Positions 5,720 through 22,056 of a stretch of 35,156 bases of DNA are shown in pieces. A program made the position numbers and the translations under genes. Positions within the stretch are counted from its first letter, which is position 1. Each line of letters begins with the position of its first letter. Below the pieces are notes generated by a model. That model did no database searches. It was not told where the DNA came from and saw only the letters and a program-made list of their open reading frames with translations. The stretch is from Silicimonas sp. (GTDB taxonomy: Bacteria > Pseudomonadota > Alphaproteobacteria > Rhodobacterales > Rhodobacteraceae), in contig JABDJX010000014.1 of assembly GCA_013003245.1 (NCBI GenBank), forward strand, positions 1 through 35,156, in the 5' to 3' direction.

Positions 5720-5733
5720 GCCCGCGTTTTAAA

Positions 5734-5806: not shown

Positions 5807-5842
5807 TTAATGGCCACCTGTTCACGGGGGAGATGACTCAAG

Positions 5843-6709: not shown

Positions 6710-6723
6710 GGGGAGGACGGAAC

Positions 6724-7554: not shown

Positions 7555-8558
7555 TGGGTCAGATTAGCCTTAACCAAGTCACCAAGAGCTTTGGCGATGT
7601 GCAAGTCATCCCGCCGCTTGATCTGGAAATCAACGAAGGGGAGTTTGTTGTCTTTGTCGGCCCGTCCGGCTGCGGCAAATCCACCTTGCTGCGCCTGATT
7701 GCCGGGCTTGAGGATACGACGTCCGGCCACATCAGCATCGATGGCAATGACGCCACAGCCCTGCCGCCTGCCAAGCGCGGCCTTGCGATGGTGTTCCAGT
7801 CCTATGCGCTTTATCCGCACATGTCGGTGCGCAAGAACATTGCCTTCCCGATGCGTATGGCGGGTCTGGATGAAGCAGCGCAAAAGGCCAAGATCGATGC
7901 TGCTGCCAAGGCGCTGAACCTGACGGATTACCTGGACCGCAAACCCGGTCAATTGTCCGGTGGTCAGCGCCAGCGTGTGGCGATTGGCCGTGCGATTGTG
8001 CGCGAACCTGCGGCGTTCCTTTTTGACGAGCCACTGTCGAACCTCGATGCGGCGCTGCGCGTCGGCATGCGGCTTGAGATCATGGACCTGCACAAAAAGC
8101 TCGATACAACGATGATCTACGTCACCCACGATCAGGTCGAAGCGATGACCATGGCCGACAAGATCGTGGTGCTGCAGGCCGGTGTGATCGAGCAGGTGGG
8201 CAGCCCGCTTGATCTTTATCACACGCCGCGCAACAAGTTTGTTGCTGGCTTTATCGGCTCGCCCAAGATGAACCTGATCGAGGGGCCGGAAGCGGCCAAG
8301 CATGATGCGACCACGATCGGCATTCGTCCCGAGCACATGACGGTTTCAAAGACCGAAGGTCTGTGGAAGGGCCGCGTTGGTGTGGCAGAGCATCTTGGGT
8401 CGGACACGTTTATCCACGTGCACGACACCGGTTTGGGCGACATGCTGACGGTGCGCATCACCGGCGATATCGAAGCAAAACATGGCGACGATATCTATCT
8501 GACGCCAATTGCGGATCAGGTGCACAGGTTCGACGCGGCGGGGCTGCGCATCGGATGA
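7554..8558 (+). CDS. smoK: Polyol ABC transporter ATP-binding protein
   Basis: A 334-residue MalK-like ATPase that energises the transporter at the cytoplasmic face. Visible motifs are Walker [10 protein letters not shown] (36-44), Q-loop F-Q-S-Y-A-L-Y-P-H (81-89), signature L-S-G-G-Q-R-Q-R (134-141), Walker B F-L-F-D-E-P (155-160) and the switch region T-H-D-Q. The C-terminal third, with G-I-R-P-E-H, is the TOBE/MalK-type regulatory domain. The start at 7554 is chosen because it overlaps the stop of the preceding permease by one base and begins the conserved M-G-Q-I-S-L strand; an 18-residue upstream extension in the same frame lies inside the permease gene and is unlikely. The end overlaps the next gene by four bases (ATGA). 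Confidence 0.93.
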
Positions 8559-9328
8559 CGCGACTGGGCGGGAAATCTGCCATGATCACGGGGGCTGCGC
8601 GCGGGATCGGGCGCGGCTTTGCCGAGGCGTATATTGCCGAAGGCGCTACGGTGGCGATTGCCGATGTCAATTTGGAGGCGGCGGAGGCGACGGCCAGAGA
8701 GTTGGGCAACGCCGCCTATGCGGTACAGATCGACGTCAGCGATCAGGCCAGTATCGATGCTGCCATTGCGACGGTCGTATCGCAAGCGGGCAAGCTTGAT
8801 ATCCTGATCAACAACGCGGCGCTATTTGATGCCGCCGAAACCGTCGATATCACCCGCGAGAGTTTCGACAAGCTTTACGCGGTGAACGTGGCGGGTACGC
8901 TTTTCACCATGCAGGCCGCGGCCAGACAGATGATCGCCCAAGGTCATGGCGGCAAAATCATCAATATGGCAAGCCAAGCCGGTCGTCGCGGTGAACCCCT
9001 TGTGCTTGTCTATTGCTCGACCAAGGCGGCGGTGATCTCGATGACGCAATCAGCCGGGCTCAACCTGATCAAGCATGGGATCAACGTGAATGCCATCGCC
9101 CCCGGAGTGGTTGACGGCGCGCATTGGGAACATGTGGATGCGATGTTTGCCAAGCTTGAGGGCAAACCGCTTGGTCAGAAAAAGGCCGAGGTTGAGGCGG
9201 GCGTGCCCGCAGGCCGGTTTGCTGTGCCTGCGGACCTGGCTGGGATGGCGGTGTTTCTGGCCTCGCCCGAATCCGATTATATCGTGTCTCAGACGTACAA
9301 CGTCGATGGCGGCCAGTGGATGAGTTGA
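8555..9328 (+). CDS. smoS: Sorbitol (L-iditol 2-) dehydrogenase, SDR family
   Basis: A 257-residue classical short-chain dehydrogenase. The NAD-binding T-G-A-A-R-G-I-G lies at 12-19, N-N-A-A at 86-89, catalytic Ser near 140, and the Y-C-S-T-K motif gives Tyr-153 and Lys-157. In the smo operon this position encodes the enzyme that oxidises sorbitol to fructose, and in family members also galactitol or related polyols. The protein is cytoplasmic and acts on polyols brought in by the upstream transporter. Its ATG overlaps the ATPase stop (ATGA) and its stop overlaps the next start (TGATG), so the genes are tightly coupled. A longer frame starting inside the ATPase gene is rejected. The exact polyol range cannot be read from sequence. 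Confidence 0.87.
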
Positions 9329-10791
9329 TGAAGCTAAGTTTGGAAACCCTTGACGCCTTGCCCGAGGACATTCGCAAACCGTCTTATGACCGGTCCGCCC
9401 TGTCGGCTGGCATTGTTCATATCGGGCTGGGCAATTTTCATCGTGGGCATCAGGCATGGTACCTGCATCGGCTGATGGATCAGGGCGAAGCGTTTGACTG
9501 GGCGATCCTTGGTGCGGGTGTGCGTCCGGGGGATGCGGCCCAACGCGAGCGGTTGCTGGCGCAGGATTGCCTGACAACGCTGATAGAGCTGGACCCGTCC
9601 GGCAAATCCGCCGAGGTAACCGGCTCGATGATCGGCTTTATCCCGGTGGCAGAAGACAACGCGCCGCTGATCGCGCATATGGCCGAGCCCGCGATCCGGA
9701 TCGTCGCGATGACCGTGACCGAGGGCGGATACTATGTTTCTACAGACGGGACGTTCGATGCGGACCACGCCGATATTCAGCACGACGCGGCGCATCCGGA
9801 CGCGCCAAAGACTGCCTTTGGTGCGATCGTTGCTGCCCTGAAACTTCGCCGAGAAAGCGGCGCAGGCCCGTTCACCTGTCAAAGCTGCGATAACCTGCAG
9901 GGCAACGGTGATATTCTGCGCCAAACCATTGTTGGGCTGGCTGCGATGTCGGACCCGGACCTTGCGCAGTGGATCGATGAGCACGCGACGTTCCCGAACT
10001 CGATGGTCGATTGCATCGTGCCCGCCACTGGCCCGTCCGAACTGGCTTTGGTGCGGACCTTCGGCATCGAAGACGCGGCTCCCGTGACGCACGAGAACTT
10101 TCGCCAATGGGTGATCGAGGACACGTTTTGCGCCGGACGCCCTGACTGGGACAAGGTGGGTGCTACCTTTACCGATGACGTCCACGCCTTTGAGGCGATG
10201 AAGCTGCGCTTGTTGAACGCCGGCCATCAGATCATCGCCACGCCGGGCGAATTGCTGTCGGTTGACACCATCGCCGGCACGATGGCGCATCCGCTTATTC
10301 GCGACATGTTCCGCAAGATCGAAATCGACGAGATCGTGCCCCACGTGGCGGCCGTGCCCGGAATGACGCCGCTGGATTATGTCGATCTGGTTGACCGCCG
10401 CTTTTCCAACCCGGAAATTCACGACACCACACGCCGCGTGGCGTTTGATGGCTCGTCGCGGCACACAGGGTTTTTACACCCAATTTTGCGCGACGCTTTA
10501 GCGGCTGGCACCCCAATTGAAGGTCTTGCACTTGTCGAGGCCCTTTGGGCGCGGATGTGCGAAGGCACGCGCGAAGATGGCAGCGAAATTTCAGCCAACG
10601 ATCCGTTTTGGGAGACTTTGACAGCAAAGGCCAAGGCCGCAAAAGAAACGCCGAAAACATGGATCGAACAGGATCAGTTCTACGGCGCGCTTGGTCAAAA
10701 CGCGCAGTTTGCGGCAAGTTTCGAGCGTTGGTTGCGCGTGGTATGGGATCAAGGTACCGAAGCGGCGATCCGCAGCTATCTGGAAGCTTGA
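9328..10791 (+). CDS. mtlK: Mannitol 2-dehydrogenase
   Basis: A 487-residue member of the polyol-specific long-chain dehydrogenase family, the usual length for mannitol 2-dehydrogenase. The N-terminal domain has the fingerprint G-L-G-N-F-H-R-G-H-Q (about 35-44) for NAD binding, and the second domain has the catalytic signature K-L-R-L-L-N-A-G-H with its Lys, Asn and His. The enzyme oxidises D-mannitol to D-fructose; family members also convert D-arabitol to D-xylulose. ATG at 9328 is chosen because it overlaps the preceding stop (TGATG); an ATG four codons upstream in the same frame is possible but less coupled. The protein acts in the cytoplasm next to the sorbitol-type enzyme, so both routes give fructose. 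Confidence 0.92.
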   Translation: MKLSLETLDALPEDIRKPSYDRSALSAGIVHIGLGNFHRGHQAWYLHRLMDQGEAFDWAILGAGVRPGDAAQRERLLAQDCLTTLIELDPSGKSAEVTGSMIGFIPVAEDNAPLIAHMAEPAIRIVAMTVTEGGYYVSTDGTFDADHADIQHDAAHPDAPKTAFGAIVAALKLRRESGAGPFTCQSCDNLQGNGDILRQTIVGLAAMSDPDLAQWIDEHATFPNSMVDCIVPATGPSELALVRTFGIEDAAPVTHENFRQWVIEDTFCAGRPDWDKVGATFTDDVHAFEAMKLRLLNAGHQIIATPGELLSVDTIAGTMAHPLIRDMFRKIEIDEIVPHVAAVPGMTPLDYVDLVDRRFSNPEIHDTTRRVAFDGSSRHTGFLHPILRDALAAGTPIEGLALVEALWARMCEGTREDGSEISANDPFWETLTAKAKAAKETPKTWIEQDQFYGALGQNAQFAASFERWLRVVWDQGTEAAIRSYLEA

Positions 10792-10799
10792 AACCACCC

Positions 10800-11444
10800 G
10801 TGGCCCGCATTGTCTTTGATCTTGACGGCACTCTGATCGACAGCGCGCCAGACATTGGCGGGATTGCCAATGGGTTGCTTGCAGACCGTGGGCTGCCGCC
10901 GATTACGTCTGAGCAGACGCGCGATTTCGTCGGCAAAGGCCCGGGTGTCTTCATCGAAAAGATGCGCACTGCACGCAACATTCCCCAAAGCGAGCAGACC
11001 ACTCTGCTGACCGCGTTCATGGCCAATTACGATGGTGCTGTGGGGCTGACACACCCTTACCCCGGAGTTGTGAATGCGTTGGAAAACCTGCGCACCAAAG
11101 GCCACCGTTTGGGGATTTGCACAAACAAGCCGATCAAGCCGACAATGGCCGTTTTGCGTCATCTGGATTTGGAACAGTATTTCGAGACCTTTGTTGGCGG
11201 GGACAGCCTTGCGGTGCACAAACCCGATCCGGCACCCTTAGAACAAGCTTTTGCAGCCCTCGGGGACGGAAAACAGATTTTCGTAGGCGACAGCGAGGTT
11301 GATGCGGCAACGGCCCTGGCCGCCGGGGTGACGTTTCTTTTGTTCACCGAAGGCTATCGCAAAAAGCCCATCGCAGAGCTGCCGCATGATCAGGCGTTTT
11401 CGCATTTCGACGGCTTTTGCGACCTTGTTGGCGGGATCACCTAG
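10800..11444 (+). CDS. HAD-family hydrolase (phosphoglycolate phosphatase-like)
   Basis: A haloacid-dehalogenase-superfamily phosphatase of about 214 residues. Motif I is F-D-L-D-G-T near the N terminus (Asp-7 and Asp-9), motif II is the G-I-C-T-N-K-P segment, and motifs III and IV are H-K-P-D-P and G-D-S-E-V-D. A helical cap domain lies between motifs I and II. The GTG at 10800 is used; a TTG at 10788 overlapping the mtlK stop would add four residues, but its only purine-rich upstream stretch is too close. As the last gene of the polyol operon it probably removes phosphate from a sugar phosphate or metabolic by-product; the substrate is not evident. Its stop codon shares CTAG with the stop of the convergent LacI gene. 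Confidence 0.83.
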   Translation: MARIVFDLDGTLIDSAPDIGGIANGLLADRGLPPITSEQTRDFVGKGPGVFIEKMRTARNIPQSEQTTLLTAFMANYDGAVGLTHPYPGVVNALENLRTKGHRLGICTNKPIKPTMAVLRHLDLEQYFETFVGGDSLAVHKPDPAPLEQAFAALGDGKQIFVGDSEVDAATALAAGVTFLLFTEGYRKKPIAELPHDQAFSHFDGFCDLVGGIT

Positions 11445-12472
11445 AGCGGCTCTGGCGCGATCAGCTTTTGCATCGGTGGCAGGTGCGGCGCGTCAATGGC
11501 GCGGATCAGCGCCTCGGCCAGATACAAACCCGTTTCGCCCACATCCTCGTAGCAGACCAGAATGTCCTTGCGAAACGCCTTAAGCAGCGGGATCGCTTCT
11601 TTTGCGGCGACGTCAATGTCCGCGCCGATCGTGCGGTCCAGCTTTTCGATGGCAAGCGTTGCGGCAAGTGCGACGGGGGCCGAGGCGCAGATGACGGCAT
11701 CAGTTTTGGGATGCGCGCGCAGGTACCGTGTTAAGGCGCCGGTCACAAGGTCAGCCGAACTGTCGCTGGTTGCATCCGGCAAAATGGCAGTATCCAGACC
11801 CAATTCCGAGGCCGTGCTGGTGGCACCCGCAACAAGGTGCTGCGCATAATTCTGATCCAGTGGCGGTGCGACGATGAGCACGTTCTTTCGACCTCTGCGA
11901 TGGAACGCGTCAACGCAGTGTTTGCCAAAAACAGCATTGTCGAAATCAAGGTAAGGCGCGTCGCTGCAGGTATTGGTGCGCCCATGCAGTGCGAAGGGAA
12001 AGTTCTGCTGCTTGAGGTAGGCGACCCTTGGATCGTCGGGCTGTATCCGATTCAGGATCACCCCGTCAGCCGAGCCGGTCTGAACGACGTATTTCACCGG
12101 ATCAAGGGGCGATTCGTCGGGAAAGTAGGGTGTCACGATCAGATGATAGGACGTTCCGCGCAGCGCGCTGGCAACCGCGTTGATCAATTTAGCGGTGTGA
12201 TTCATTACGTCGTGATCGGTGCACAGGATCAGCGCAATGACATTGGTTTTGCCAGTGCGCAGACGCAAGCCAGCCCGGTTCGGGCGATAGCCAAGTTCGT
12301 TGGCCAAAGCGCGCACACGTTTCTTGGTTTTTGCCCCAATATCAGGGGCATCGCTTAGGGCACGCGATACTGTGGGAACTGCCAGACCAAGCAGGCGTGC
12401 GATGGTTTTCAGGGTCGGGCGTTCGCGTTCGCCCGGCTCCAAAACTATCTCTGGCAAGTCAATGTCACTCAT
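11441..12472 (-). CDS. LacI-family transcriptional regulator (third sugar system)
   Basis: A 343-residue LacI/GalR protein with a short acidic N-terminal tail. The helix-turn-helix spans residues about 19-42 (T-L-K-T-I-A-R-L-L-G-L-A-V-P-T-V-S-R-A-L-S-D), then the hinge (Y-R-P-N-R-A-G-L-R-L-R-T-G-K-T-N) and the effector domain start at N-V-I-A-L-I-L. It is transcribed away from the binding-protein gene at 12587. The 114-nt gap between them holds a double operator-like repeat (12530-12563), so it most likely represses the divergent transport/catabolic operon until a sugar binds. Its last four bases overlap the end of the convergent HAD gene. Confidence 0.9.
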   Translation of the reverse strand: MSDIDLPEIVLEPGERERPTLKTIARLLGLAVPTVSRALSDAPDIGAKTKKRVRALANELGYRPNRAGLRLRTGKTNVIALILCTDHDVMNHTAKLINAVASALRGTSYHLIVTPYFPDESPLDPVKYVVQTGSADGVILNRIQPDDPRVAYLKQQNFPFALHGRTNTCSDAPYLDFDNAVFGKHCVDAFHRRGRKNVLIVAPPLDQNYAQHLVAGATSTASELGLDTAILPDATSDSSADLVTGALTRYLRAHPKTDAVICASAPVALAATLAIEKLDRTIGADIDVAAKEAIPLLKAFRKDILVCYEDVGETGLYLAEALIRAIDAPHLPPMQKLIAPEPL

Positions 12473-12529: not shown

Positions 12530-12563
12530 CTAAAACGATTTAAGGTTTCCACAATCGTTTTAG
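12530..12563. promoter_or_regulatory. Paired operator-like repeat CTAAAACGATT / AATCGTTTTAG
   Basis: Two perfect 11-bp arms in inverted orientation are separated by 12 nt. Each arm sits on an imperfect LacI-type operator with central CG (TAAAACGATTTA at 12531-12542; CAATCGTTTTAG at 12552-12563). The CG centres at 12536 and 12556 lie 20 bp apart, about two helical turns, so two repressor dimers could bind the same face of the DNA. The site lies 24 nt upstream of the start codon of the binding-protein gene and so near the likely promoter. A GGGAGGA ribosome binding site follows at 12574-12580. Confidence 0.75.
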
Positions 12564-12586: not shown

Positions 12587-13816
12587 ATGAAAACGATCAA
12601 GACGCTACTTTGCGGGTCGGCCCTTGTGGCGGCCGGTGCCGTTCAGGCTGCTGATCTGGAGGTCACGCATTGGTGGACATCGGGGGGTGAGGCCGCCGCA
12701 GTGGCCGAATTTGCCAAAGCCTTTAACGCCACCGAGCACAGCTGGGTCGACGGTGCGATCGCTGGCGGCGGGGGCACGGCGCGCCCGATCATGGTCAGCC
12801 GGATTATCGGTGGCGACCCAATGGGCGCCTTCCAGTTTAACCATGGTCGTCAAGCTGAAGAACTGATCGAGGCTGGGCTATTGCGCGACCTGACCGACAT
12901 TGCCGAGGCCGAGGGCTGGAAAGACATCGTCAATCCGCCGTCGCTGCTTGATGCCTGCACCGTCGATGGCCGGATCTATTGCGCGCCGGTCAACATTCAC
13001 TCGTGGCAGTGGCTGTGGCTTTCGAACAAAGTTTTTGAAGATGCTGGCCTTGATGTGCCGTCAAACTGGGATGAATTTGCGGCCGCCGGACCAAAACTGC
13101 GCGAAGCGGGTTATCAGCCCTTGGCTTTGGGAGGTCAGTCCTGGCAGTCGACGGGTTTGTTCAACGTGCTGATGGCCACTATCGCTGGCCCTGACGTACT
13201 GACAACGATCTACGGTGAAGCCGACGCTGACTTGGCGGCGGGCGACGAGATGAAAGCCGTATTCCAGGCTGCCGCCAATGCGCGTGACATGGCGCAGGGC
13301 TCTAACGTTCAGGACTGGAACCAGGCGACAAACCTTGTGATCATCGACAAAGCCGGCGGTCAGATCATGGGAGACTGGGCGCAGGGCGAGTTTGCCGTCG
13401 CCAACAAGGTCGCTGGAGAAGACTATACGTGTTTGCCCGGATTGGGCGTGCGCGACGTCATCTCGACAGGTGGTGACGCGTTCTACTTCCCTGTGAACGA
13501 CGATCCCGAAATCACGGCTGCACAGGACGTTTTGGCGGCAACGTTGCTTAAGCCTGAAACGCAGGTGAGCTTTAATTTGGCGAAGGGTTCTTTGCCGATC
13601 CGTGGCGATATTGATCTTTCTGCCGCAAACGACTGCATGAAGAAGGGCCTTGAGATTTTGGCCGCAGGAAACACCCTGCCTGACACCAACATGCTCAACA
13701 CGGAAGACACCAACAATCAGCTAAACGACCTGTTTGTTCAGTTCTTCCAGGATACCTCGATTTCGCCTGAGGATGCGCAAGCGCGCTTTGTCGATATCGT
13801 GAAAAACAAAGACTAA
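12587..13816 (+). CDS. Glucose/glycoside-type ABC transporter substrate-binding protein
   Basis: A 409-residue periplasmic binding protein with a signal peptide at residues 1-21 (A-V-Q-A cleavage). The mature start L-E-V-T-H-W-W-T-S-G-G-E-A and the following V-D-G-A-I-A-G-G-G-G-T-A-R match the GtsA-like glucose/mannose-binding branch of the CUT1 family as I recall it; the tryptophan-rich H-S-W-Q-W-L-W segment further along is also typical. It heads an operon of two permeases, an ATPase, a TIM-barrel isomerase-like enzyme and a Gfo/Idh/MocA oxidoreductase. Control by the divergent LacI gene is likely. A glucose-like sugar or a glycoside is the inferred substrate. Confidence 0.88.
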   Translation: MKTIKTLLCGSALVAAGAVQAADLEVTHWWTSGGEAAAVAEFAKAFNATEHSWVDGAIAGGGGTARPIMVSRIIGGDPMGAFQFNHGRQAEELIEAGLLRDLTDIAEAEGWKDIVNPPSLLDACTVDGRIYCAPVNIHSWQWLWLSNKVFEDAGLDVPSNWDEFAAAGPKLREAGYQPLALGGQSWQSTGLFNVLMATIAGPDVLTTIYGEADADLAAGDEMKAVFQAAANARDMAQGSNVQDWNQATNLVIIDKAGGQIMGDWAQGEFAVANKVAGEDYTCLPGLGVRDVISTGGDAFYFPVNDDPEITAAQDVLAATLLKPETQVSFNLAKGSLPIRGDIDLSAANDCMKKGLEILAAGNTLPDTNMLNTEDTNNQLNDLFVQFFQDTSISPEDAQARFVDIVKNKD

Positions 13817-13828
13817 GAGCCAATGGCC

Positions 13829-13857
13829 AAGGGGCGGTGCGAGACGTGCCGCCCCTT
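13829..13857 (+). terminator. Stem-loop behind the third-system binding-protein gene
   Basis: AAGGGGCGG and CCGCCCCTT pair as a 9-bp perfect stem around an 11-nt loop, 13 nt after the stop codon at 13816 and 31 nt before the next start. No terminal T-run follows. It shares the GGGGCGGTGCG core with the stem-loop at 5734-5760, and both occupy the same place in their operons, so partial termination or 3'-end protection of the binding-protein message is likely. Confidence 0.72.
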
Positions 13858-13887
13858 TGCACAGAGCCAGTTGAGGGAGGGGACCGC

Positions 13888-14781
13888 GTGGCATCTGCGA
13901 GCAAACCTATCGGGTTATTCCGGAACATGACCGCCAAGATCGCGGCGGTTCCGATGATCCTGACGGCACTTGTCGTCTTCGTCGGCGGCACGCTTTGGAC
14001 CGTGACCTATTCCTTCACCAACTCGAAACTTTTGCCGCGCACCAAGTTCGTGGGCTTCGATCAGTACGAGCGGCTTTGGGCGACCGAGCGCTGGATGGTG
14101 TCGATTGAGAACCTGATCATCTATGGCATCTGTTCGCTTGTCTTCAGCCTGATCATTGGCTTCCTTCTGGCTGCCTTGCTTGATCAGAAGGTGCGCTTTG
14201 AAAACACCTTCCGCACCATTATTCTCTATCCCTTTGCATTGTCTTTCATTGTCACGGGATTGATCTGGCAGTGGCTTTTGAACCCCGATTTCGGCATTCA
14301 AAGCGTGCTGCAAAACCTTGGATGGGAAAGCTTCAACTTCAATCCGCTCTATAACTCCGACATCGTGATTTACGGCGTGCTTTTTGCAGGTCTCTGGCAG
14401 GGCACGGGCTTTGTCATGGTGCTGATGCTGGCGGGGCTGCGCGGCATTGATCAAGAGATTTGGAAGGCCAGCCGAGTTGATGGCATTCCGGCATGGAAAA
14501 CGTATCTGTTCATCGTCATCCCGATGATGCGGCCCGTTTTCATCACCACGCTTGTCATCATCGCCTCGGGCATCGTGCGGCTTTACGATCTGATCGTGGC
14601 GCAAACCTCTGGCGGGCCGGGGATATCGTCTGAGGTGCCTGCAAAATACGTCTACGACTATATGTTTCAAGGACAAAACCTGGGTCAGGGCTTTGCCGCC
14701 TCGACCATGATGCTGCTGGCGGTGGCTATCGTGATCATCCCATGGGCCTATCTTGAATTTGGAGGGCGCAAGCATGGCTGA
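13888..14781 (+). CDS. Sugar ABC transporter permease (third system, first)
   Basis: A 297-residue MalF/UgpA-type inner-membrane permease. The GTG at 13888 is chosen because GAGGGAGGGG lies 5-6 nt upstream; an ATG 17 codons earlier falls inside the stem-loop region and is unlikely. The first helix lies at about 20-42, with further helices at about 78-102, 110-130, 160-185, 210-230 and 265-287. The EAA-like loop reads I-W-K-A-S-R-V-D-G-I with V-I-P-M-M following, an alternative of the canonical E-A-A-x-x-D-G-A. The end overlaps the next permease by eight bases. Confidence 0.9.
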   Translation: MASASKPIGLFRNMTAKIAAVPMILTALVVFVGGTLWTVTYSFTNSKLLPRTKFVGFDQYERLWATERWMVSIENLIIYGICSLVFSLIIGFLLAALLDQKVRFENTFRTIILYPFALSFIVTGLIWQWLLNPDFGIQSVLQNLGWESFNFNPLYNSDIVIYGVLFAGLWQGTGFVMVLMLAGLRGIDQEIWKASRVDGIPAWKTYLFIVIPMMRPVFITTLVIIASGIVRLYDLIVAQTSGGPGISSEVPAKYVYDYMFQGQNLGQGFAASTMMLLAVAIVIIPWAYLEFGGRKHG

Positions 14782-15715
14782 ACCCGGAACACTTGCCGCA
14801 GCAACCGCGGCCGTTACGCCAATTGTGGATCAATTGGCAGGTCCGCGCGGGCCAAAGCCAAAGAACGCGTTCTCGCGCCGCAACATATTCATTTACGGCA
14901 CGCTGATCATGGTGTCGCTTTACTATCTGCTGCCGCTTTACGTGATGATCATGACCTCGCTTAAGGGCATGCCGGAAATCCGGCTGGGCAATATCTTTGC
15001 GCCCCCTGTTGAGATCACCTTTGAGCCGTGGGTCAAGGCGTGGTCCGAGGCCTGCACCGGTCTGAACTGCGATGGTCTGAGCAGGGGGTTCTGGAACTCG
15101 GTGCGGATCACCATTCCGTCGGTCGTTGTGTCGATCGCGATTGCGAGCGTGAACGGATACGCGCTGGCGAACTGGCGGTTCAAAGGGGCCGATATGTTTT
15201 TCACCATCCTGATTTTCGGCGCCTTCATCCCTTATCAGGTGATGCTCTATCCGCTGGTGATCCTGCTGCGCGAAATGGGGATCTATGGCACCTTGACCGG
15301 ATTGATTCTGGTGCATTCGATCTTTGGCATGCCGATCCTGACGCTGCTCTTCCGCAACTATTTCACCTCGCTGCCCGAAGAGCTGTTCAAGGCGGCGCGC
15401 GTAGACGGGGCAGGGTTTTGGGGTATCTATTTCCGGATCATGGTGCCAATGTCGCTGCCAATCTTTGTCGTGGCGATGATCCTGCAAGTCACTGGTATCT
15501 GGAACGATTTCCTGTTTGGCGTGGTCTATACCAAGCCTGATCTTTACCCGATGACGGTGCAGTTGAACAACATCGTCAACTCGGTTCAGGGTGTCAAGGA
15601 ATACAACGTGAATATGGCCGCGACGTTGCTGACGGGGCTGGTGCCGCTGACGATTTACTTCGTCTCGGGGCGATTGTTTGTGCGCGGCATCGCCGCTGGC
15701 GCTGTGAAGGGATAA
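14774..15715 (+). CDS. Sugar ABC transporter permease (third system, second)
   Basis: A 313-residue MalG-type permease with a longer than usual cytoplasmic N-terminal tail (about 45 residues, Ala/Pro rich) before the first helix at about 46-68. The M-T-S-L-K-G-M-P-E-I segment follows it, as in MalG proteins. The EAA loop reads L-F-K-A-A-R-V-D-G-A-G-F-W with I-M-V-P-M after it. The ATG at 14774 is used because GGAGGG lies 7 nt upstream; another ATG seven codons earlier lies in the same frame. It overlaps the end of the first permease by eight bases, so the two are coupled. An inserted periplasmic piece with two cysteines (E-A-C-T-G-L-N-C) lies between helices 1 and 2. Confidence 0.9.
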   Translation: MAEPGTLAAATAAVTPIVDQLAGPRGPKPKNAFSRRNIFIYGTLIMVSLYYLLPLYVMIMTSLKGMPEIRLGNIFAPPVEITFEPWVKAWSEACTGLNCDGLSRGFWNSVRITIPSVVVSIAIASVNGYALANWRFKGADMFFTILIFGAFIPYQVMLYPLVILLREMGIYGTLTGLILVHSIFGMPILTLLFRNYFTSLPEELFKAARVDGAGFWGIYFRIMVPMSLPIFVVAMILQVTGIWNDFLFGVVYTKPDLYPMTVQLNNIVNSVQGVKEYNVNMAATLLTGLVPLTIYFVSGRLFVRGIAAGAVKG

Positions 15716-15719
15716 GGGC

Positions 15720-16802
15720 ATGAACGCGGAAAATGTATCGGTCTCGATCAAAGAGTTGGATTTGTATTTCGGATCGCTGGGCGTTCTGAAAAACCTGAAC
15801 CTTGATATTTACGATGGTGAGTTTCTGGTGCTGCTTGGTTCATCCGGTTGTGGCAAATCCACGCTGCTGAACTGTATTGCAGGACTGTTGGAGATCACCG
15901 ACGGACAGATTTTCATCAAGGGCCAGAACGTGACATGGGCCGAGCCATCAGAACGCGGCATCGGCATGGTGTTTCAATCCTACGCGCTTTATCCGCAGAT
16001 GACTGTGGAAGGGAATATGTCGTTCGGGTTGAAGAACGCGAAGGTGCCCAAGGCCCAGATCAAGGAACGCGTCGACCGCGCTGCAGAGGTTTTGCAGATC
16101 GAGCCGTTGATGAAACGCAAGCCTGCTGCTCTTTCAGGTGGCCAGCGTCAGCGGGTTGCCATAGGGCGTGCGCTGGTGCGCGATGTGGATGTGTTTCTCT
16201 TTGACGAGCCATTGTCTAACCTTGATGCCAAGCTGCGCGCTGATTTGCGGGTCGAGCTGAAGCAGCTGCACCACCGGCTGGAAAACACGATGATCTATGT
16301 CACCCACGATCAGGTCGAAGCAATGACACTGGCGGACCGGATCGCGATCATGAAGGACGGGATCATTCAGCAACTTGCCTCGCCGTCCGAAATTTACGCC
16401 AAGCCTGCAAATCTTTACGTGGCCGATTTTATCGGCTCGCCGTCGATGAACCTGCTCAAGGGGCGCGTTGAGGCGAACACTTTTGCCTTGGGCGATCTGT
16501 CAATCAACCTTGATGCCTATGACTTTACCCGCAAGCCCGAGGGCGAGACGTGGTTTGGCATTCGCCCCGAACATGTGGTCACGGGTGAGGCGGCGCATGG
16601 GTGCGATACGTCTTTGGATGTCGTGGTCGAGGTGGTGGATCCGCTGGGTTCGGACACTCTTGTTCTGACCCGACTGGCGGGTGAAAAATTCTGGCTGCGC
16701 CTTGATGGGCAGTCTTCAGTCACAGCCGGCGACAGGCTTCGCATCGGAATATCCGCAAAAGACGCCTCGCTTTTTGATGCAAACGATGAGACGCGCCTTT
16801 GA
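15720..16802 (+). CDS. Sugar ABC transporter ATP-binding protein (third system)
   Basis: A 360-residue MalK/UgpC-like ATPase. Walker A is G-S-S-G-C-G-K-S-T (40-48), the signature is L-S-G-G-Q-R-Q-R (138-145), Walker B is F-L-F-D-E-P (159-164) and the switch segment is T-H-D-Q. The C-terminal domain (about 240-360) has the F-I-G-S-P-S-M-N and I-R-P-E-H features of the MalK regulatory/TOBE region. It starts 4 nt after the second permease stop, with the GATAAGGG stretch serving as ribosome binding site, and completes a full transporter with the three upstream genes. Confidence 0.93.
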   Translation: MNAENVSVSIKELDLYFGSLGVLKNLNLDIYDGEFLVLLGSSGCGKSTLLNCIAGLLEITDGQIFIKGQNVTWAEPSERGIGMVFQSYALYPQMTVEGNMSFGLKNAKVPKAQIKERVDRAAEVLQIEPLMKRKPAALSGGQRQRVAIGRALVRDVDVFLFDEPLSNLDAKLRADLRVELKQLHHRLENTMIYVTHDQVEAMTLADRIAIMKDGIIQQLASPSEIYAKPANLYVADFIGSPSMNLLKGRVEANTFALGDLSINLDAYDFTRKPEGETWFGIRPEHVVTGEAAHGCDTSLDVVVEVVDPLGSDTLVLTRLAGEKFWLRLDGQSSVTAGDRLRIGISAKDASLFDANDETRL

Positions 16803-16826
16803 CGTCTCACTAACGAAAGAACCAAC

Positions 16827-17579
16827 GTGACAAAATTCTCTTACCAGCTTTACAGCTCCCGCAATTTCCCGCCTTTGTCGAACACTCTCAAAGAGTTGGC
16901 AGCACTTGGCTATGCCGAGGTAGAAGGCTACGGCGGCCTTTTCAGCGATGTGGAACAGGCCGAGAGCTTGCGCTCTGAACTTGACGCAAACGATTTGACC
17001 ATGCCCACTGCGCACATCGGTTTGGACATGGTCGAGGCTGACCCAAAAACCGTTGTGGGCATCGCAAAGGCCCTTGGCGTGGGCATGGTGTTTGGCCCCC
17101 ATATCGGCGAAGATCAACGCCCCTCGGACGCTGCGGGCTGGAGGGCCTTTGGCGCGCGGCTGGCCGAAGCGGCCAAGCCGTTGGAGGATGCAGGCATCCG
17201 CTTTGGCTGGCACAACCACGATTTTGAGTTCACCCACGGCTCGGCTGTGCATCCGATGGACTGGATCTTTGAGGGCGGCCCTGATCTGGCGTTTGAATTT
17301 GACCTTGCGTGGTGCATTCGCGCAGGCGTGGACCATATCGGCTTTATCGAACGGCATGCGGATCGGCTTTTGGCGGCGCACATCAAAGACATCGCGCCCG
17401 TAGGCGAGAAGGCCGACGAAGATGGCTGGGCGGATGTTGGCGACGGCGTGATCGACTGGCGCGCGACCTTTGATGCCCTGGCGAAGACCAAGTGCCAGCA
17501 CTTTGTTGCAGAACACGACAACCCAAGCGATGGCCATCGGTTTGCAAGCCGATCCATCGCCTTTATGAACTCACTTTAA
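16827..17579 (+). CDS. Xylose isomerase-like TIM-barrel enzyme (sugar phosphate isomerase/epimerase family)
   Basis: A 250-residue protein of the AP-endonuclease-2/xylose-isomerase-like TIM-barrel family. Metal-ligand segments are visible: W-H-N-H-D-F-E-F near the middle, E-F-D-L-A-W-C, H-I-K-D-I-A-P and V-A-E-H-D-N-P near the C terminus. Family members isomerise, epimerise or eliminate sugar derivatives using a divalent metal. The start is a GTG 24 nt after the ATPase stop; the ribosome binding site is weak. The pairing with a Gfo/Idh/MocA oxidoreductase directly behind it suggests the two act in sequence on the imported sugar. Which reaction it performs cannot be told from sequence alone. 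Confidence 0.82.
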   Translation: MTKFSYQLYSSRNFPPLSNTLKELAALGYAEVEGYGGLFSDVEQAESLRSELDANDLTMPTAHIGLDMVEADPKTVVGIAKALGVGMVFGPHIGEDQRPSDAAGWRAFGARLAEAAKPLEDAGIRFGWHNHDFEFTHGSAVHPMDWIFEGGPDLAFEFDLAWCIRAGVDHIGFIERHADRLLAAHIKDIAPVGEKADEDGWADVGDGVIDWRATFDALAKTKCQHFVAEHDNPSDGHRFASRSIAFMNSL

Positions 17580-17592
17580 GGACGACAGGCAT

Positions 17593-18711
17593 ATGAGCGA
17601 TCTGGGCATTGGCATCATCGGGTGCGGCAATATTTCAACGGCCTATCTGCGCCTGGCACCCTTGTTTAAGGGCATCGAGATGCGCGCGGTGGCGGACATC
17701 AACATGGATGCGGCCAAAGCGAGGGCCGAAGAGTTTGGCGTGCGGGCTGAGACTGTCGAGGGGCTGCTGGGCGCAGACGATATCGACATTGTCGTGAACC
17801 TGACCATACCGGCGGCGCACTTTGAGGTGTCGAGCCAAATTCTGGAGGCGGGCAAGCACGTCTATTCGGAAAAGCCGTTTGTTCTGACGCTGGAGGAAGG
17901 CTCGAAGATCAAGGCATTGGCCGATGCGAAAGGGCTGCGCGTGGGGTCGACGCCCGACACCTTCATGGGGGGCGCACACCAGCAGGCGCGGCAGATGATC
18001 GAAGATGGAACGATCGGCACGGTGACCAGTGGCACCGCCTTTGTGATGAGCCATGGGATGGAGGATTGGCACCCGAACCCGGATTTCTTCTTTCTGCCCG
18101 GCGCGGGGCCGATCCTGGATATCGGGCCCTATTACGTGACCAACCTGATCCAGTTGATCGGGCCGATCAAAAAGGTCGCGGCATTCACCGCGACACCGTC
18201 CAAGACGCGCACGATCCTGTCCGAGCCGCGCAAGGGCGAGGAAATTCCGGTAAAGACCCCGACGACGATTCACGGGATCATGGAGTTTGAAAACGGAGCC
18301 GTGATCACCCTTGCGGCCAGTTGGGACGTGTGGGGGCACGGGCACACACCGATGGAGCTTTATGGCACCAAGGCATCGCTTGACGTGCCGGATCCGAACT
18401 TTTTCGGTGGCGATCTGATGCTGACACCCGCCAATGAGGAGGCGCGTCTGGTGAGCCCGTGGGCGCATCCCTTTGGCGTGGAAAACGACAAGGGACGCGC
18501 GAATTATCGCACGGCTGGTCTGGCCGATATGGCGATGGCCATTCAGGAAGGTCGCGCGCACCGCTGTTCGATGGAGATGGCGTTGCATGCGGTTGAGGTG
18601 ATGGGCGCGTTTTTGAAGTCGGGCGAGACCGGGCAAGTGATGGAGATGACAACAACCTGCGCGCGGCCTGAGGCTTTGTCGCCGGAGGCTGCGGCGGCTT
18701 TGTTGCGCTGA
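17593..18711 (+). CDS. Gfo/Idh/MocA-family sugar oxidoreductase
   Basis: A 372-residue NAD(P)-dependent oxidoreductase. The Rossmann motif G-I-G-I-I-G-C-G-N-I-S lies at 5-15, and the family's E-K-P motif with the catalytic Lys at 93-95 (Y-S-E-K-P-F). A later D-I-G-P-Y-Y-V segment occupies the place where many members have D-x-G-x-H, so the usual His is replaced by Tyr; this variant occurs in part of the family. Enzymes of this type oxidise sugars, inositols or glycosides at a ring carbon, often C3. As the last gene of the third sugar operon, 13 nt behind the TIM-barrel gene, it is probably a catabolic dehydrogenase for the imported substrate. Confidence 0.87.
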   Translation: MSDLGIGIIGCGNISTAYLRLAPLFKGIEMRAVADINMDAAKARAEEFGVRAETVEGLLGADDIDIVVNLTIPAAHFEVSSQILEAGKHVYSEKPFVLTLEEGSKIKALADAKGLRVGSTPDTFMGGAHQQARQMIEDGTIGTVTSGTAFVMSHGMEDWHPNPDFFFLPGAGPILDIGPYYVTNLIQLIGPIKKVAAFTATPSKTRTILSEPRKGEEIPVKTPTTIHGIMEFENGAVITLAASWDVWGHGHTPMELYGTKASLDVPDPNFFGGDLMLTPANEEARLVSPWAHPFGVENDKGRANYRTAGLADMAMAIQEGRAHRCSMEMALHAVEVMGAFLKSGETGQVMEMTTTCARPEALSPEAAAALLR

Positions 18712-18870: not shown

Positions 18871-19794
18871 TTATAGCAGCGTTGTGATCAGAGCCATCAG
18901 GTCATGCACGGTGATGTTCTGGGTATGGGCGTTTTGTGAGGGCCGGAAGTTGGCTGTGCGATAAGGGTTCTCCTGCCCGAAGCGCGCGAAAAGCGCGTCG
19001 TTGTCGGCCTCAAATGTCTCAATAATCCGCAGGCGGTCGGCGTCGTTTATTGAAAACGGCGGTCGGTCTGCGAACACCTCGTTTGCCTTGGCAAAAAGTT
19101 TGCGTTGTTGCGCCACGCCCATGTCCTGCACTTTTGCCAATCGCATCACTTCGGCCACCACACCCGGCACGCTGGAGTTTAGGGTTTTGTTGGGCGCGAT
19201 GCCTTCGATGCCAAAGCGCGCGACCATGTCGTCAAGCGGTGAGCCCGCCTCGAACGGGCGCAGTGCCACGTTATCGTTGCCAAAGACATCGGCCCAAGCG
19301 GTGATACAGGCCAGCGCATCAATCTCGGGCGCGATTTTGTGCGGCTCTTTGAGGAACCGCGTGATGGGCGCAGCAAAGCCGTTACCGACCTGCTTGGTCT
19401 TTTGATTGTGACAGGAAATCAGAAAGGTATCGGGGCGGCGAGGGTAGGCCAGGATCGTGACATTTTCCACTGGCAAGGCGGCTTTTAGCCTGGCGATGCG
19501 ATCCGCAGGACAGGCAAAGAACTCTTCGCTGGAAATAAAGGCGCGGGGCAGGCGCGATTTCTCCAAAGCCTGGCACAGTGCGTCAAGCTCGGTGGCAAAG
19601 TCGGGACGGCTGCCGTCGATTGGATTAACCTTGTCTTTCATCGCAAAGGCAAGCCTGTGATGCGCGGGATAAGCCCAGTTGCACTTGGGGTAGAGCAGCC
19701 CCCTGCGCCGCAACGCCGCTGCATTGTCAGCAAAGGCTGTCTGAATTGCGGTTGTACCGGTTTTGTGGGGTCCGATATGGAGAAAGAGATCCAT
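18871..19794 (-). CDS. Sulfotransferase-like protein
   Basis: About 307 residues. The N terminus reads M-D-L-F-L-H-I-G-P-H-K-T-G-T-T-A-I-Q, the beta strand and phosphate-binding loop by which sulfotransferase-like proteins hold the PAPS donor. I-S-S-E-E-F-F and V-T-I-L-A-Y-P-R-R-P-D near the middle match the conserved second strand and the 3'-phosphate-binding R/S region. The ATG at 19794 is chosen because the motif starts there; a 46-residue upstream extension in the same frame would overlap the divergent hemerythrin-like gene and lacks conserved features. The acceptor (polysaccharide, lipid or small molecule) is unknown. No other sulfation or capsule genes are nearby. Confidence 0.75.
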   Translation of the reverse strand: MDLFLHIGPHKTGTTAIQTAFADNAAALRRRGLLYPKCNWAYPAHHRLAFAMKDKVNPIDGSRPDFATELDALCQALEKSRLPRAFISSEEFFACPADRIARLKAALPVENVTILAYPRRPDTFLISCHNQKTKQVGNGFAAPITRFLKEPHKIAPEIDALACITAWADVFGNDNVALRPFEAGSPLDDMVARFGIEGIAPNKTLNSSVPGVVAEVMRLAKVQDMGVAQQRKLFAKANEVFADRPPFSINDADRLRIIETFEADNDALFARFGQENPYRTANFRPSQNAHTQNITVHDLMALITTLL

Positions 19795-19838
19795 AGGCGC
19801 TGTGCTACGCGCCAAGGCTGAGAATAAGGTTAACGCAT

Positions 19839-20432
19839 TTGAAACATAGTGAGTATGAAACAACCCAGTGGGCCCTGGAAAACCGTCAGGTTTTGCCGGA
19901 CGCCCTGCGCGTTCTGTTGCAGGACTATCCACGCGAGCTTTGGGAGGACGATCCGGGCTTTTCGCAGTTGATCCGCTTTTGGCTGGACCGGCATCTGATG
20001 TTTCGCCGGATCATGGAGGCTTTGCTGGAAACCACCGCGCATGTGAGGGACAAATCCCTTGATCCACAGAGTTTTGCCCACCAATTATCGCGGTACGGAT
20101 CGATGTTTGTGGGCGAGCTGCACGCGCATCATTCGGTTGAGGATGCGCACTACTTCCCGGTGATGAAGACTCTGGACAGCCGGATCACGGCCGGTTTTGA
20201 CATTCTGGACAAGGACCATCACACGATTGACGCGCGCCTTCAGGGGTTTGCCGAGATGGCCAACGGAGTGCTGCGCGGCATGCAGGCAGACGAGGCGGCG
20301 GCGATGGCGCAGCTTGGTCCGCTGGCCGATGAACTGAAAGTGCTTGAGCATTTTCTTGACCGGCATTTGACGGACGAGGAAGAACTCGTTGTGCCGGTAT
20401 TGCTGAAATATACGCCCGAAGGGCTGGTTTAG
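19839..20432 (+). CDS. Hemerythrin-like (HHE) domain protein
   Basis: A 197-residue four-helix-bundle protein of the hemerythrin HHE type. Putative iron ligands are spread as expected: His-52 (W-L-D-R-H), His-95 to His-98 with Glu-101 and His-104 (L-H-A-H-H-S-V-E-D-A-H), His-127/128 (D-K-D-H-H), and His-171, His-176 and Glu-180 (L-E-H-F-L-D-R-H-L-T-D-E-E). Such proteins bind a di-iron centre and sense or buffer oxygen, nitric oxide or peroxide. The start is TTG, supported by AAGGT 8 nt upstream; no in-frame ATG lies nearby. It is divergent from the sulfotransferase-like gene and convergent with phyR, sharing stop-codon bases with it. A stress-response role is inferred only from that neighbour. 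Confidence 0.83.
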   Translation: MKHSEYETTQWALENRQVLPDALRVLLQDYPRELWEDDPGFSQLIRFWLDRHLMFRRIMEALLETTAHVRDKSLDPQSFAHQLSRYGSMFVGELHAHHSVEDAHYFPVMKTLDSRITAGFDILDKDHHTIDARLQGFAEMANGVLRGMQADEAAAMAQLGPLADELKVLEHFLDRHLTDEEELVVPVLLKYTPEGLV

Positions 20433-21238
20433 GCCAGGGTCTCGACCGAGGCAAAAAACATCGCCTGACTGACAGCCGATCTTACCTGCGCAGGGGTATA
20501 GGGTTTGGTGATCAAAAAGGCAGGCTCGGGGCGTTGTCCCGTCAGGAATCGCTCGGGAAACCCGGTTATAAAGATCACCGGGATATCAGAGCGTCCGTTT
20601 CTCAGGATTTCCTCAACGGCATCGACACCGGAAGTATCGTCGGCCAGTTGGATATCAGACAGGATCAAATCTGGATCGGTCCTTTTGGCCAATAACACTG
20701 CCTCGGGGTGCGTGCGCGCTGTGCCTATCAAAGTGTGTCCCATGGCGGAGACGGTGCTTTCAATGTCCATCGCCGTGACAGCTTCGTCTTCGATGACAAG
20801 GACATTGCCTTTTGTCGAGTTCGCCACGTCTGCATGTGCGGTCCGCAGCAAGTCTTCGACCGTGTTGACATCCAGCGACATGATGCGCGCCACGGTGTCG
20901 GTCGGAAACTGTTCGATCGAAGACAAAAGCAAGGCTTCGCGCGACCCTTTGGTAAGCTTTGAAAGGTGCTTTTGCGCGCGCACCTCAAGCGACGTGTCGG
21001 GCGGTGCAATTTGATCGTCCGCGTTTTCCCAGATCAGGTGAAAGGCGTGAAAAAGCGCAGCCTTCGGCGCGCCGAAGCCGACGAGCAATTCAGGTTTAGA
21101 GACCAACAACTCCAGAGCATCCAGAGCGAATGCGTCCCCTGAGTTTTGGTTACCTGTCAGCGCGCGCGCATAACGCCGCAGATAGGGGAGTGCGTTATCC
21201 AGCGCGTCTGTGGTAGTGTTGGAAGGCATCACAGTCAT
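20429..21238 (-). CDS. phyR: PhyR general stress response anti-anti-sigma regulator
   Basis: A 269-residue two-domain protein. Residues about 14-140 form a degenerate sigma-factor-like domain (A-L-P-Y-L-R-R-Y-A-R-A-L-T-G with sigma2-like and sigma4-like parts). Residues about 145-262 are a receiver domain with acidic Glu-150/Asp-151, phosphoacceptor Asp-195 (L-I-L-S-D-I-Q-L-A-D), the F-I-T-G-F-P-E-R segment of the FATGUY receiver class, and Lys-245. When phosphorylated, PhyR binds NepR through the sigma-like domain and frees EcfG. The ATG at 21238 is preferred over 21262, whose upstream purines sit against the start codon. The gene is divergent from nepR-ecfG, the standard alphaproteobacterial arrangement. 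No PhyR-activating histidine kinase is present in the window. Confidence 0.95.
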   Translation of the reverse strand: MTVMPSNTTTDALDNALPYLRRYARALTGNQNSGDAFALDALELLVSKPELLVGFGAPKAALFHAFHLIWENADDQIAPPDTSLEVRAQKHLSKLTKGSREALLLSSIEQFPTDTVARIMSLDVNTVEDLLRTAHADVANSTKGNVLVIEDEAVTAMDIESTVSAMGHTLIGTARTHPEAVLLAKRTDPDLILSDIQLADDTSGVDAVEEILRNGRSDIPVIFITGFPERFLTGQRPEPAFLITKPYTPAQVRSAVSQAMFFASVETLA

Positions 21239-21255
21239 ATCTTTTGCTCTTTTGG

Positions 21256-21281
21256 GGAACATACCCCCTAGGTTGTGCGTT
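21256..21281 (+). promoter_or_regulatory. EcfG-type promoter for nepR-ecfG
   Basis: GGAAC at 21256-21260 and CGTT at 21278-21281 are separated by 17 nt, matching the GGAAC-N16/17-CGTT consensus known for EcfG sigma factors. The site lies 45 nt upstream of nepR and points toward it, giving positive autoregulation of the sigma factor and its anti-sigma. No matching site is seen on the minus strand for phyR. Confidence 0.85.
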
Positions 21282-21325
21282 GACTAGGTGATTACACGCA
21301 AATTACAGAACTGGCCAATGGTACT

Positions 21326-21499
21326 ATGATGACCCAAGAACGGCCCGACCCGGACATCTCGCGTGAGATCGATGAGAATCTGCGCAAAGTTTATGAAAAT
21401 GTTCTGAAGGAAGAGGTTCCTGACAGGTTTAAGGAATTGTTAAACCAATTGCGTGCTGAAAAAGTGCCGCCGTCTGACGTCTCGCAGGGGGGCCAATGA
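21326..21499 (+). CDS. nepR: NepR anti-sigma factor
   Basis: A 57-residue protein that binds the EcfG sigma factor and is sequestered by phosphorylated PhyR. The NepR core is clear: I-D-E-N-L-R-K-V-Y-E-N-V-L (residues 15-27), then V-P-D-R-F-K-E-L-L-N-Q-L-R (31-43), the two helices that contact sigma. Short flexible ends flank the core. Two adjacent ATG codons (21326 and 21329) could each start it; no strong ribosome binding site is visible for either. Its stop overlaps the ecfG start as ATGA, implying translational coupling and balanced anti-sigma/sigma synthesis. Confidence 0.95.
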   Translation: MMTQERPDPDISREIDENLRKVYENVLKEEVPDRFKELLNQLRAEKVPPSDVSQGGQ

Positions 21500-22056
21500 C
21501 GCAGCAGACTGATCCTCGCGACGCAATCATCGAACACCTGCCGGCCATGCGCGCCTTTGCCGTGTCCCTGGCACGCAGCAGCGCCTTGGCGGACGATATG
21601 GTTCAAGATACCATCGTAAAGGCCTGGACTAACTTCGAAAAATTTAATCCAGACACAAATCTGCGGGCGTGGCTTTTCACCATTTTGCGCAACACTTTTT
21701 ATTCGCACCGCCGCAAGGTCAAGCGTGAGGTGTCGGACGTGGATGGGATGTACGCCAAGAAGCTTGCCACCAAACCCAGTCATGACGGACGACTGCACTT
21801 GCGTGATTTCATGGCAGCGTTCGATCAATTGTCGCCCGAACAGCGCGAGGCTTTGATCCTTGTTGGTGCGTCTGGCTTCACCTATGACGAGGCGGCCGAG
21901 ATGTGTGGCGTGGCTTTGGGCACGATCAAAAGCCGGGTCAATCGGGGCCGTAAAACGCTTGCCGTTCTTTTGTCGTTGACCGAAGGCGAAGAGATGGAAT
22001 TGACCGACCCTGCAACTTTAGCGGTCATGACAGCGCCGGGTTCCTCTGCTGCCTAG
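21496..22056 (+). CDS. ecfG: EcfG-family RNA polymerase sigma factor
   Basis: A 186-residue ECF15-type sigma factor. Sigma region 2 spans about 10-80 (A-D-D-M-V-Q-D-T-I-V-K-A-W at region 2.2, N-L-R-A-W-L-F-T-I-L-R-N at 2.3-2.4), and region 4 spans about 105-160 (L-S-P-E-Q-R-E-A-L-I-L-V, then F-T-Y-D-E-A-A-E-M-C-G-V-A-L-G-T-I-K-S-R-V-N-R-G-R). It directs RNA polymerase to general stress promoters and probably its own. It lies directly behind nepR with a 4-nt overlap. Its C-terminal tail of about 20 residues is low in complexity. Its stop codon is shared (CTAG) with the convergent FAD-oxidase gene. Confidence 0.95.
   Translation: MTQQTDPRDAIIEHLPAMRAFAVSLARSSALADDMVQDTIVKAWTNFEKFNPDTNLRAWLFTILRNTFYSHRRKVKREVSDVDGMYAKKLATKPSHDGRLHLRDFMAAFDQLSPEQREALILVGASGFTYDEAAEMCGVALGTIKSRVNRGRKTLAVLLSLTEGEEMELTDPATLAVMTAPGSSAA

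Follow-up and report, generated by a model that had tools for sequence, protein, structure and literature searches.

A Silicimonas gene cassette predicted to import beta-linked diglucosides and to cleave them by oxidation and elimination

Here, we focus on a six-gene sugar cassette of Silicimonas sp. (Rhodobacteraceae), carried on a contig of 35,156 nucleotides (JABDJX010000014.1, assembly GCA_013003245.1) that was analysed over its whole length and is termed the window. The cassette probably serves to import beta-diglucosides and to cleave them non-hydrolytically, as a cytoplasmic variant, dependent on nicotinamide adenine dinucleotide (NAD), of a known pathway of oxidation, elimination, hydration and reduction. 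The imported sugars would be beta-linked diglucosides such as cellobiose and gentiobiose, or comparable glucosides from plants and hemicellulose. An oxidoreductase of the Gfo/Idh/MocA family (Gfo/Idh) would then oxidise C3 of the non-reducing glucosyl unit with NAD+, and a triosephosphate isomerase (TIM) barrel protein, with a divalent metal, would remove H2 and beta-eliminate the other sugar, generating 2-hydroxy-3-keto-glucal. An AtHYD-like hydratase, encoded elsewhere in the genome on contig 73, would add water to form 3-keto-glucose, which a second Gfo/Idh protein would reduce to glucose; this last step could allow recycling of the cofactor. For each step, the assignment to these proteins draws on sequence, predicted structure and gene association.

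The TIM barrel gene (16827-17579, + strand; Pfam AP_endonuc_2, xylose isomerase-like) encodes a predicted 3-keto-beta-glucoside beta-eliminase of the AtOGE type. When the protein is compared by phmmer with all solved structures, the best match is AtOGE of Agrobacterium tumefaciens (8bvk, E = 3.8e-37); the five remaining matches are weaker (5.9e-8 to 2.9e-4) and include 3-keto-glucoside lyases of Bacteroides and Alistipes. Eight residues are named in the AtOGE site: E39, H66, H132, H134, E161, D163, H189 and E233, of which His132, Asp163, His189 and Glu233 are metal ligands and His134 is catalytic (PMC10628242). The window protein has the identical residue at all eight positions (E33, H63, H129, H131, E157, D159, H185 and E229), with H129, D159, H185 and E229 at the positions of the metal ligands and H131 at that of the catalytic histidine. 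A profile of the TIM barrel family that was built without AtOGE gives 213 bits to an AtOGE ortholog, whereas two hydratases and YcjR score only 12 to 14 bits.

Relatives of the cassette were collected as 160 loci in two sets of 80, termed the genome_contigs set and the family set; three TIM barrel proteins are identical between the sets. The family set holds 80 TIM barrel loci from 78 genomes, 66 of them at the full length of 20 kb, and derives from 295 genomes that sample the window's family with one genome for each genus; a protein was counted as present in these at E<=1e-20. The TIM barrel occurs in 83 of these 295 genomes, in 80 of the 83 at an identity of at least 44%. The best 80 named TIM barrel loci are mostly from Rhizobiaceae. 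For the TIM barrel alignment, seven of the 160 loci had no usable open reading frame (ORF) and were dropped; across the 153 remaining TIM barrel relatives, the eight site residues of AtOGE are identical throughout, except for H189, which is retained in 152. A TIM barrel with 42-60% identity to that of the window is followed on the same strand, within 300 bases, by the cassette Gfo/Idh gene in 156/160 loci; the pairing therefore exceeds chance.

The predicted fold points in the same direction. An AlphaFold2 model of the TIM barrel (mean predicted local distance difference test score, 96.8) has 8bvk as its first Foldseek match (E = 1.1e-16); ranks 1-4 are chains of AtOGE and the AL1 lyase, ranks 5-6 the uncharacterised 3obe, ranks 7-8 AL1 and the Bacteroides thetaiotaomicron lyase, and rank 15 the hydratase AtHYD (8ro4). 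Alignment with VIA-align gives Z 27.6 for 8tcr (root-mean-square deviation (rmsd) 2.1, 233 residues aligned) and Z 25.8 for 8bvk (rmsd 1.9, 209 aligned), and the top six structures include 3obe, AL1, BT1, 3l23 and AtOGE. The AtOGE ortholog that was read has a signal-peptide-like N terminus. The window TIM barrel starts six residues ahead of a conserved QLYSSRN motif, as judged by eye, and with no signal-like stretch the predicted eliminase should be cytoplasmic.

The final gene of the cassette (17593-18711, +; Pfam GFO_IDH_MocA) encodes the Gfo/Idh protein, a predicted NAD-dependent glucoside 3-dehydrogenase. Its best phmmer match among solved proteins is DgpA1 (9m3d, E = 7.9e-20). Dgp proteins oxidise C-glycosides at C3. 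When four oxidoreductases are compared, YcjS scores 50.1 bits, two hydratase-linked Gfo proteins of the 3-keto-glucose-reductase kind score 28.0 and 24.8, and YcjQ gives no match. Residues E93, K94 and P95 are kept in 154/155 relatives and D176 in all 155. The identity of the oxidising enzyme is also addressed by what the related loci carry. The flavoenzyme GlycDH has no match above 150 bits in any of the 160 cassette loci, 157 of which have the cassette Gfo/Idh, while both OGE-operon loci that were read (L110 and L111) contain GlycDH and have no such Gfo/Idh protein; in the Silicimonas genome, a search for GlycDH returns a single match of 53 residues (E = 7.6e-4). This pattern of substitution fits the Gfo/Idh protein into the oxidation slot and, together with the sequence scores to DgpA1 and YcjS, is why the oxidation step is assigned to it.

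Evidence on the substrate comes from the importer. The substrate-binding protein of the ATP-binding cassette (ABC) importer (12587-13816, +; Pfam SBP_bac_1) has the ABC sugar-binding proteins 5xpj and 5dvf as its best solved relatives (E about 1e-68), and is 67% identical over 393 residues to an ORF of Sinorhizobium meliloti 4H41 (L038:2020-3255). The S. meliloti locus matches SMc04259 to SMc04251 gene by gene, with the glycoside hydrolase family 2 (GH2) gene and the DctP-type protein at the expected places, and the window binding protein is by sequence the ortholog of SMc04259. SMc04259 has a Kd of 33 nM for cellobiose and of 53 nM for gentiobiose, and gentiobiose induces its gene; in the available text of the same report, glucose, mannose, xylose, maltose, lactose and lactulose gave no response (PMC3454389). 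That report, which concerns biosensors based on Förster resonance energy transfer, defines the transporter as SMc04256-9, adjoining a putative beta-mannosidase, SMc04255, while SMc04251 is the SmoM binding protein of a tripartite ATP-independent periplasmic (TRAP) transporter (PMC10433430). AtOGE cleaves 3'-keto-cellobiose with a kcat of 51 per s and leaves 3'-keto-maltose uncleaved (PMC10628242). The specificity of SMc04259 and the chemistry of AtOGE thus agree on beta-diglucosides, and we infer that the binding protein of the window has the specificity of its ortholog.

The importer is completed by two permeases (13837-14781 and 14753-15715, both + and BPD_transp_1; the true start of each may lie slightly downstream) and an ATPase of the UgpC/MalK type (15720-16802, +; Pfam ABC_tran, OB_MalK and TOBE_2) that reaches 440.7 bits against the NCBIfam UgpC subfamily model, above its 432-bit cut-off. 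The six genes form a close-packed run on the + strand, with one overlap and otherwise 4 to 24 bases between neighbours. The span of 12587-18711 given in the original prediction runs exactly from the start codon of the binding protein gene to the stop codon of the Gfo/Idh gene, and its layout of an ABC importer, a xylose isomerase-like protein and a Gfo/Idh enzyme is confirmed by the ORFs and Pfam. Its description of the importer as GtsA-like is fair given 5xpj and 5dvf as best relatives; against the NCBIfam GlcS model, the binding protein scores 57.9 bits, far under the 500-bit cut-off. That there is no kinase or glycosidase holds for the six genes by Pfam; in the relatives, GH2 and GH43 genes are frequent.

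Hydration and reduction are predicted to be carried out by genes outside the window. The window is contig 22 of a genome of 302 contigs (3.43 Mb; 95.4% complete, 5.2% contamination), and contig 73 of this genome carries, at 17528-18583, a hydratase homolog that shares 70% identity with its counterpart in the L110 OGE operon and matches 8ro4, titled 2-hydroxy-3-keto-glucal hydratase, with E = 1.5e-177. The hydratase function of AtHYD was called preliminary in the 2023 paper (PMC10628242). A second Gfo/Idh gene follows directly (L114:9584-10744), its product 61% identical to the Gfo protein of the L110 operon. Contig 73 and the window have similar proportions of guanine plus cytosine (0.558 and 0.567), and their tetranucleotide correlation is 0.973, whereas none of 71 relatives' loci exceeds 0.954; the matching composition makes it unlikely that contig 73 is contamination.

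Hydratase and TIM barrel also occur together across genomes. The hydratase is present in 137 of the 295 family genomes, comprising 76/83 with the TIM barrel and 61/212 without it (Fisher p = 3e-24, a value uncorrected for phylogeny; the related loci are not independent of one another). In 37/80 loci of the family set, no more than about 10 kb separates it from the TIM barrel (18/49 where TIM barrel identity is at least 50%, and 19/31 below that). Gene orders in relatives include TIM barrel, Gfo/Idh, hydratase and second Gfo/Idh in line, or the hydratase and second Gfo/Idh placed past a divergent LacI gene. A hydratase match was found in 47 of 48 other TIM barrel-bearing genomes searched, one match being just two short fragments; these genomes came from 50 of the 80 named loci, were chosen for their TIM barrel with no TIM-less control, and overlap the 295-genome sample in at least two cases. 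In a further S. meliloti locus (L225, 3596-11696), a LacI gene, an FGGY kinase and a xylose isomerase-like gene are followed by the hydratase and second Gfo/Idh and then by a GH1 gene; given this neighbourhood, the module of hydratase and second Gfo/Idh may have an additional role with xylose-containing glycosides.

The frequency of the hydratase bears directly on the strongest competing explanation, in which two enzymes suffice: the TIM barrel would both eliminate and hydrate, and a single Gfo/Idh protein would oxidise the glucoside and reduce 3-keto-glucose, so that the pair acts as a split, NAD-recycling glycosidase. Seven of the 83 TIM barrel genomes have no hydratase match at E<=1e-20, and a variant of the B. 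thetaiotaomicron lyase was chosen as hydration-deficient (PMC13273386), both of which speak for this scheme. We regard it as improbable given the hydratase in 76/83 genomes and nearby in 37/80 loci, and given that AtOGE itself yields 2-hydroxy-3-keto-glucal (PMC10628242). A broader form of the idea holds that the TIM barrel and Gfo/Idh alone are a redox-neutral, two-protein glycosidase, with oxidation and re-reduction drawing on one NAD pool, and a main cytoplasmic route for beta-diglucosides in family members that have no beta-glucosidases, hidden under the label of sugar isomerase and oxidoreductase; it is an outside chance.

A second alternative is a route like that of the Escherichia coli Ycj proteins, with C3 oxidation, C4 epimerisation by the TIM barrel and re-reduction, by which the sugar is changed and no bond is broken. 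The layout is similar (ABC importer, TIM barrel, Gfo/Idh and repressor) and YcjS is the closest to the window Gfo/Idh of the four oxidoreductases compared, but phmmer finds no match between the TIM barrel and YcjR, YcjR scores 11.9 bits with the TIM barrel family profile where the AtOGE ortholog scores 213, and no YcjQ-type dehydrogenase is found among the six cassette genes. The identity of the TIM barrel as a YcjR-type 4-epimerase was rejected on these scores, and the route as a whole is very unlikely. The same low standing is given to an ordinary inositol or aldose pair, of the inosose dehydratase and inositol dehydrogenase types, acting on a monosaccharide or polyol. By E-value, the top NCBIfam matches are IolE and IolG, and IolE structures are near the TIM barrel in fold; nevertheless, the scores of 41 bits against a cut-off of 290 (IolE) and 62 against 355 (IolG) are far too low, and the binding protein ortholog takes disaccharides and, in the available text, shows no response to glucose, mannose or xylose (PMC3454389). 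Family models for inositol, levoglucosan and uridine diphosphate-sugar dehydrogenases were likewise tried, with scores all far under cut-off. It is hardly credible that the Gfo/Idh protein alone is an NAD-dependent glycosidase of the sulfoquinovosidase kind, with the TIM barrel acting on a later intermediate: the NAD-dependent sulfoquinovosidase 8qc3 shares its fold (Z 33.0, rmsd 3.0, 338 residues), but by sequence the Gfo/Idh protein is nearer to DgpA1 and YcjS, and the adjoining TIM barrel matches the AtOGE active site at each residue.

Several observations weigh against oxidation and elimination of imported beta-diglucosides as the function of the cassette. The window TIM barrel is just 33% identical to AtOGE and is therefore not its ortholog; an AtOGE ortholog (94-96% identity) and a cassette TIM barrel (36-37%) occur together in six of 12 Agrobacterium/Rhizobium-type genomes searched. 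In VIA-align, two uncharacterised structures, 3obe and 3l23, are on a par with the lyases, and Art22 and IolE follow closely at Z 25 to 24. For the Gfo/Idh protein, sugar 3-ketoreductases are also among the better solved relatives (3rbv, E = 2.3e-14), and the fold search with a confident model does not single out 3-dehydrogenases: 1,5-anhydrofructose reductase comes first, and the scores are much alike for this enzyme, inositol dehydrogenase, glucose-fructose oxidoreductase and levoglucosan dehydrogenase. The hydratase is off the locus and present in 61 genomes that have no TIM barrel, and two stretches scanned upstream of the contig 73 genes contain no operator-like site. In S. meliloti, the hydratase adjoins genes for an FGGY sugar kinase and a xylose isomerase-like protein, neighbours which imply that it may have other uses.

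Glycosidases in the related loci are a further point on this side. GH2 (beta-mannosidase-like) genes are found near the TIM barrel in 62/80 loci of the genome_contigs set and 33/80 of the family set, and GH43 (beta-xylosidase-like) genes in 50/80 and 27/80, respectively; hydrolysis is thus often part of the cassette. Neither family is present in 49 of the 160 loci, which resemble the window in this respect. Cassettes of this kind may import hemicellulose fragments, with GH2 and GH43 enzymes trimming mannosyl and xylosyl ends and the eliminase trimming glucosyl ends. In 13 loci, a D-lyxose isomerase gene directly precedes the TIM barrel (for example L015:8230-8925; PF07385, 324.8 bits), which would fit mannose released by a neighbouring GH2. 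The S. meliloti GH1 has no match in any of the 160 loci. Glycosidase searches of the Silicimonas genome covered GH1, GH3 and one GH2 probe: GH1 gave no match (controls were positive in 7/14), the S. meliloti GH2 probe gave no match in a search that had no positive control, and one GH3 was found, closest to NagZ with 195 bits, short of the 207-bit cut-off.

Regulation of the cassette would be local. A divergent gene for a LacI-family repressor (11441-12472, - strand; Pfam LacI and Peripla_BP_3) is the probable regulator of the operon, and a related divergent LacI gene is present in many relatives' loci. Two LacI-type operator-like sites (strand unspecified) lie 20 bases apart upstream of the binding protein gene: AAAACGATTT at 12532-12541, an exact match to AAAWCGWTTT, and CAATCGTTTT at 12552-12561, with one mismatch. 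The repressor may act on the operon through this pair. With at most one mismatch, the motif occurs ahead of the binding protein gene in 71 of the 139 sequences compared (the window and 138 loci), compared with a mean of 4.1 and a maximum of 9 in 50 mononucleotide shuffles, a count that is no significance value because the upstream sequences are related.

The remainder of the window contains genes of other kinds. At 3260-11444 there is a separate sugar cassette of LacI, an ABC importer, a short-chain dehydrogenase, a mannitol dehydrogenase family protein and a HAD hydrolase, which looks like one for polyol uptake and use. A protein of 353 residues encoded at 18871-19932 (-) has no Pfam match up to E = 0.01; its stretch LHIGPHKTGTTAIQ is sulfotransferase-like by eye. 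At 20429-22056, a sigma factor gene adjoins one for a PhyR-type response regulator, resembling the usual general stress response pair. A gene for a glycine transfer RNA (tRNA-Gly, GCC) lies at 26967-27041 (+), and scans of the window for tRNAs and Rfam families returned this gene only. Elsewhere in the genome, on contig 86 (L116, 5501-9613), three tandem Gfo/Idh-like genes are followed by a PfkB-type sugar kinase gene, an uncharacterised sugar cluster.

The original prediction had proposed C3 oxidation followed by elimination, and this proposal is now supported by AtOGE as the nearest relative in sequence and fold, the kept active site, the relatives of the Gfo/Idh protein, the hydratase and reductase homologs, and SMc04259. 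It had named close orthology to inositol or simple aldose enzymes as a finding that would speak against it; the scores for IolE, IolG and levoglucosan dehydrogenase lie far under their cut-offs. Where it went too far was in suggesting a less described pathway, as the chemistry has already been described, for AtOGE in 2023 and in later work. What differs here is the predicted combination of a cytoplasmic eliminase and a Gfo/Idh 3-dehydrogenase, both encoded downstream of an ABC importer for disaccharides. If correct, a transporter that binds cellobiose in S. meliloti feeds a non-hydrolytic pathway, beta-glucosidase genes alone would be insufficient to judge cellobiose use, and two enzymes annotated merely as isomerase and oxidoreductase would gain a concrete function, testable in an established laboratory strain. 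The cassette enzymes are widespread in the window's family (83/295 sampled genomes).

Among known systems, the S. meliloti locus SMc04259-SMc04251 (L038) has importer, TIM barrel, Gfo/Idh and LacI genes that are orthologous to those of the window and occur in matching order, but it also encodes an aldo-keto reductase, a TRAP-type binding protein and a beta-mannosidase-like GH2 protein. Counted along the locus, its TIM barrel and Gfo/Idh genes are SMc04254 and SMc04253; no function is assigned to either in the available text on this locus (PMC3454389), and a search limited to an open-access collection of papers found no publication on SMc04254, SMc04257, SMc04258 or SMc04260. The ycj cluster of E. 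coli has in common with the window an ABC importer, a TIM barrel, a D-glucoside 3-dehydrogenase (as YcjS is annotated) and a repressor; it differs in having a TIM barrel annotated as a 4-epimerase, as well as two phosphorylases and a phosphoglucomutase. In the levoglucosan and puerarin operons, oxidation is carried out by an NAD-type Gfo/Idh enzyme. A difference from the levoglucosan operon is that the window Gfo/Idh scores 61.8 bits against the 650-bit cut-off for levoglucosan dehydrogenase. Both operons, from Bacillus smithii (levoglucosan) and strain PUE (puerarin), follow the same four-step scheme (PMC10628242). Puerarin lyase has two subunits (PMC13273386), whereas the TIM barrel gene of the window stands alone. 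The 3-keto-beta-glucopyranoside-1,2-lyases of Bacteroides and Alistipes (8tct, 8tcd) share the fold and the proposed reaction at about 20% identity. Kastner et al., in Angew. Chem. in 2024, reportedly described conserved glycoside-utilisation loci of this kind, and part of the cassette family may therefore already be published.

The comparison with the OGE pathway of A. tumefaciens, which consists of GlycDH, AtOGE, AtHYD and a Gfo reductase (PMC10628242), brings out both differences and similarities. The window cassette has a Gfo/Idh protein in place of the flavoenzyme GlycDH, its predicted eliminase has no signal-peptide-like N terminus, and an ABC importer heads the operon; the hydratase and reductase genes are unlinked, on contig 73, instead of forming one operon with the rest. 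The two systems have in common an eliminase of the same family with the same eight active-site residues, homologs of the hydratase and the reductase in the genome, and a predicted cleavage of beta-diglucosides through the same four steps.

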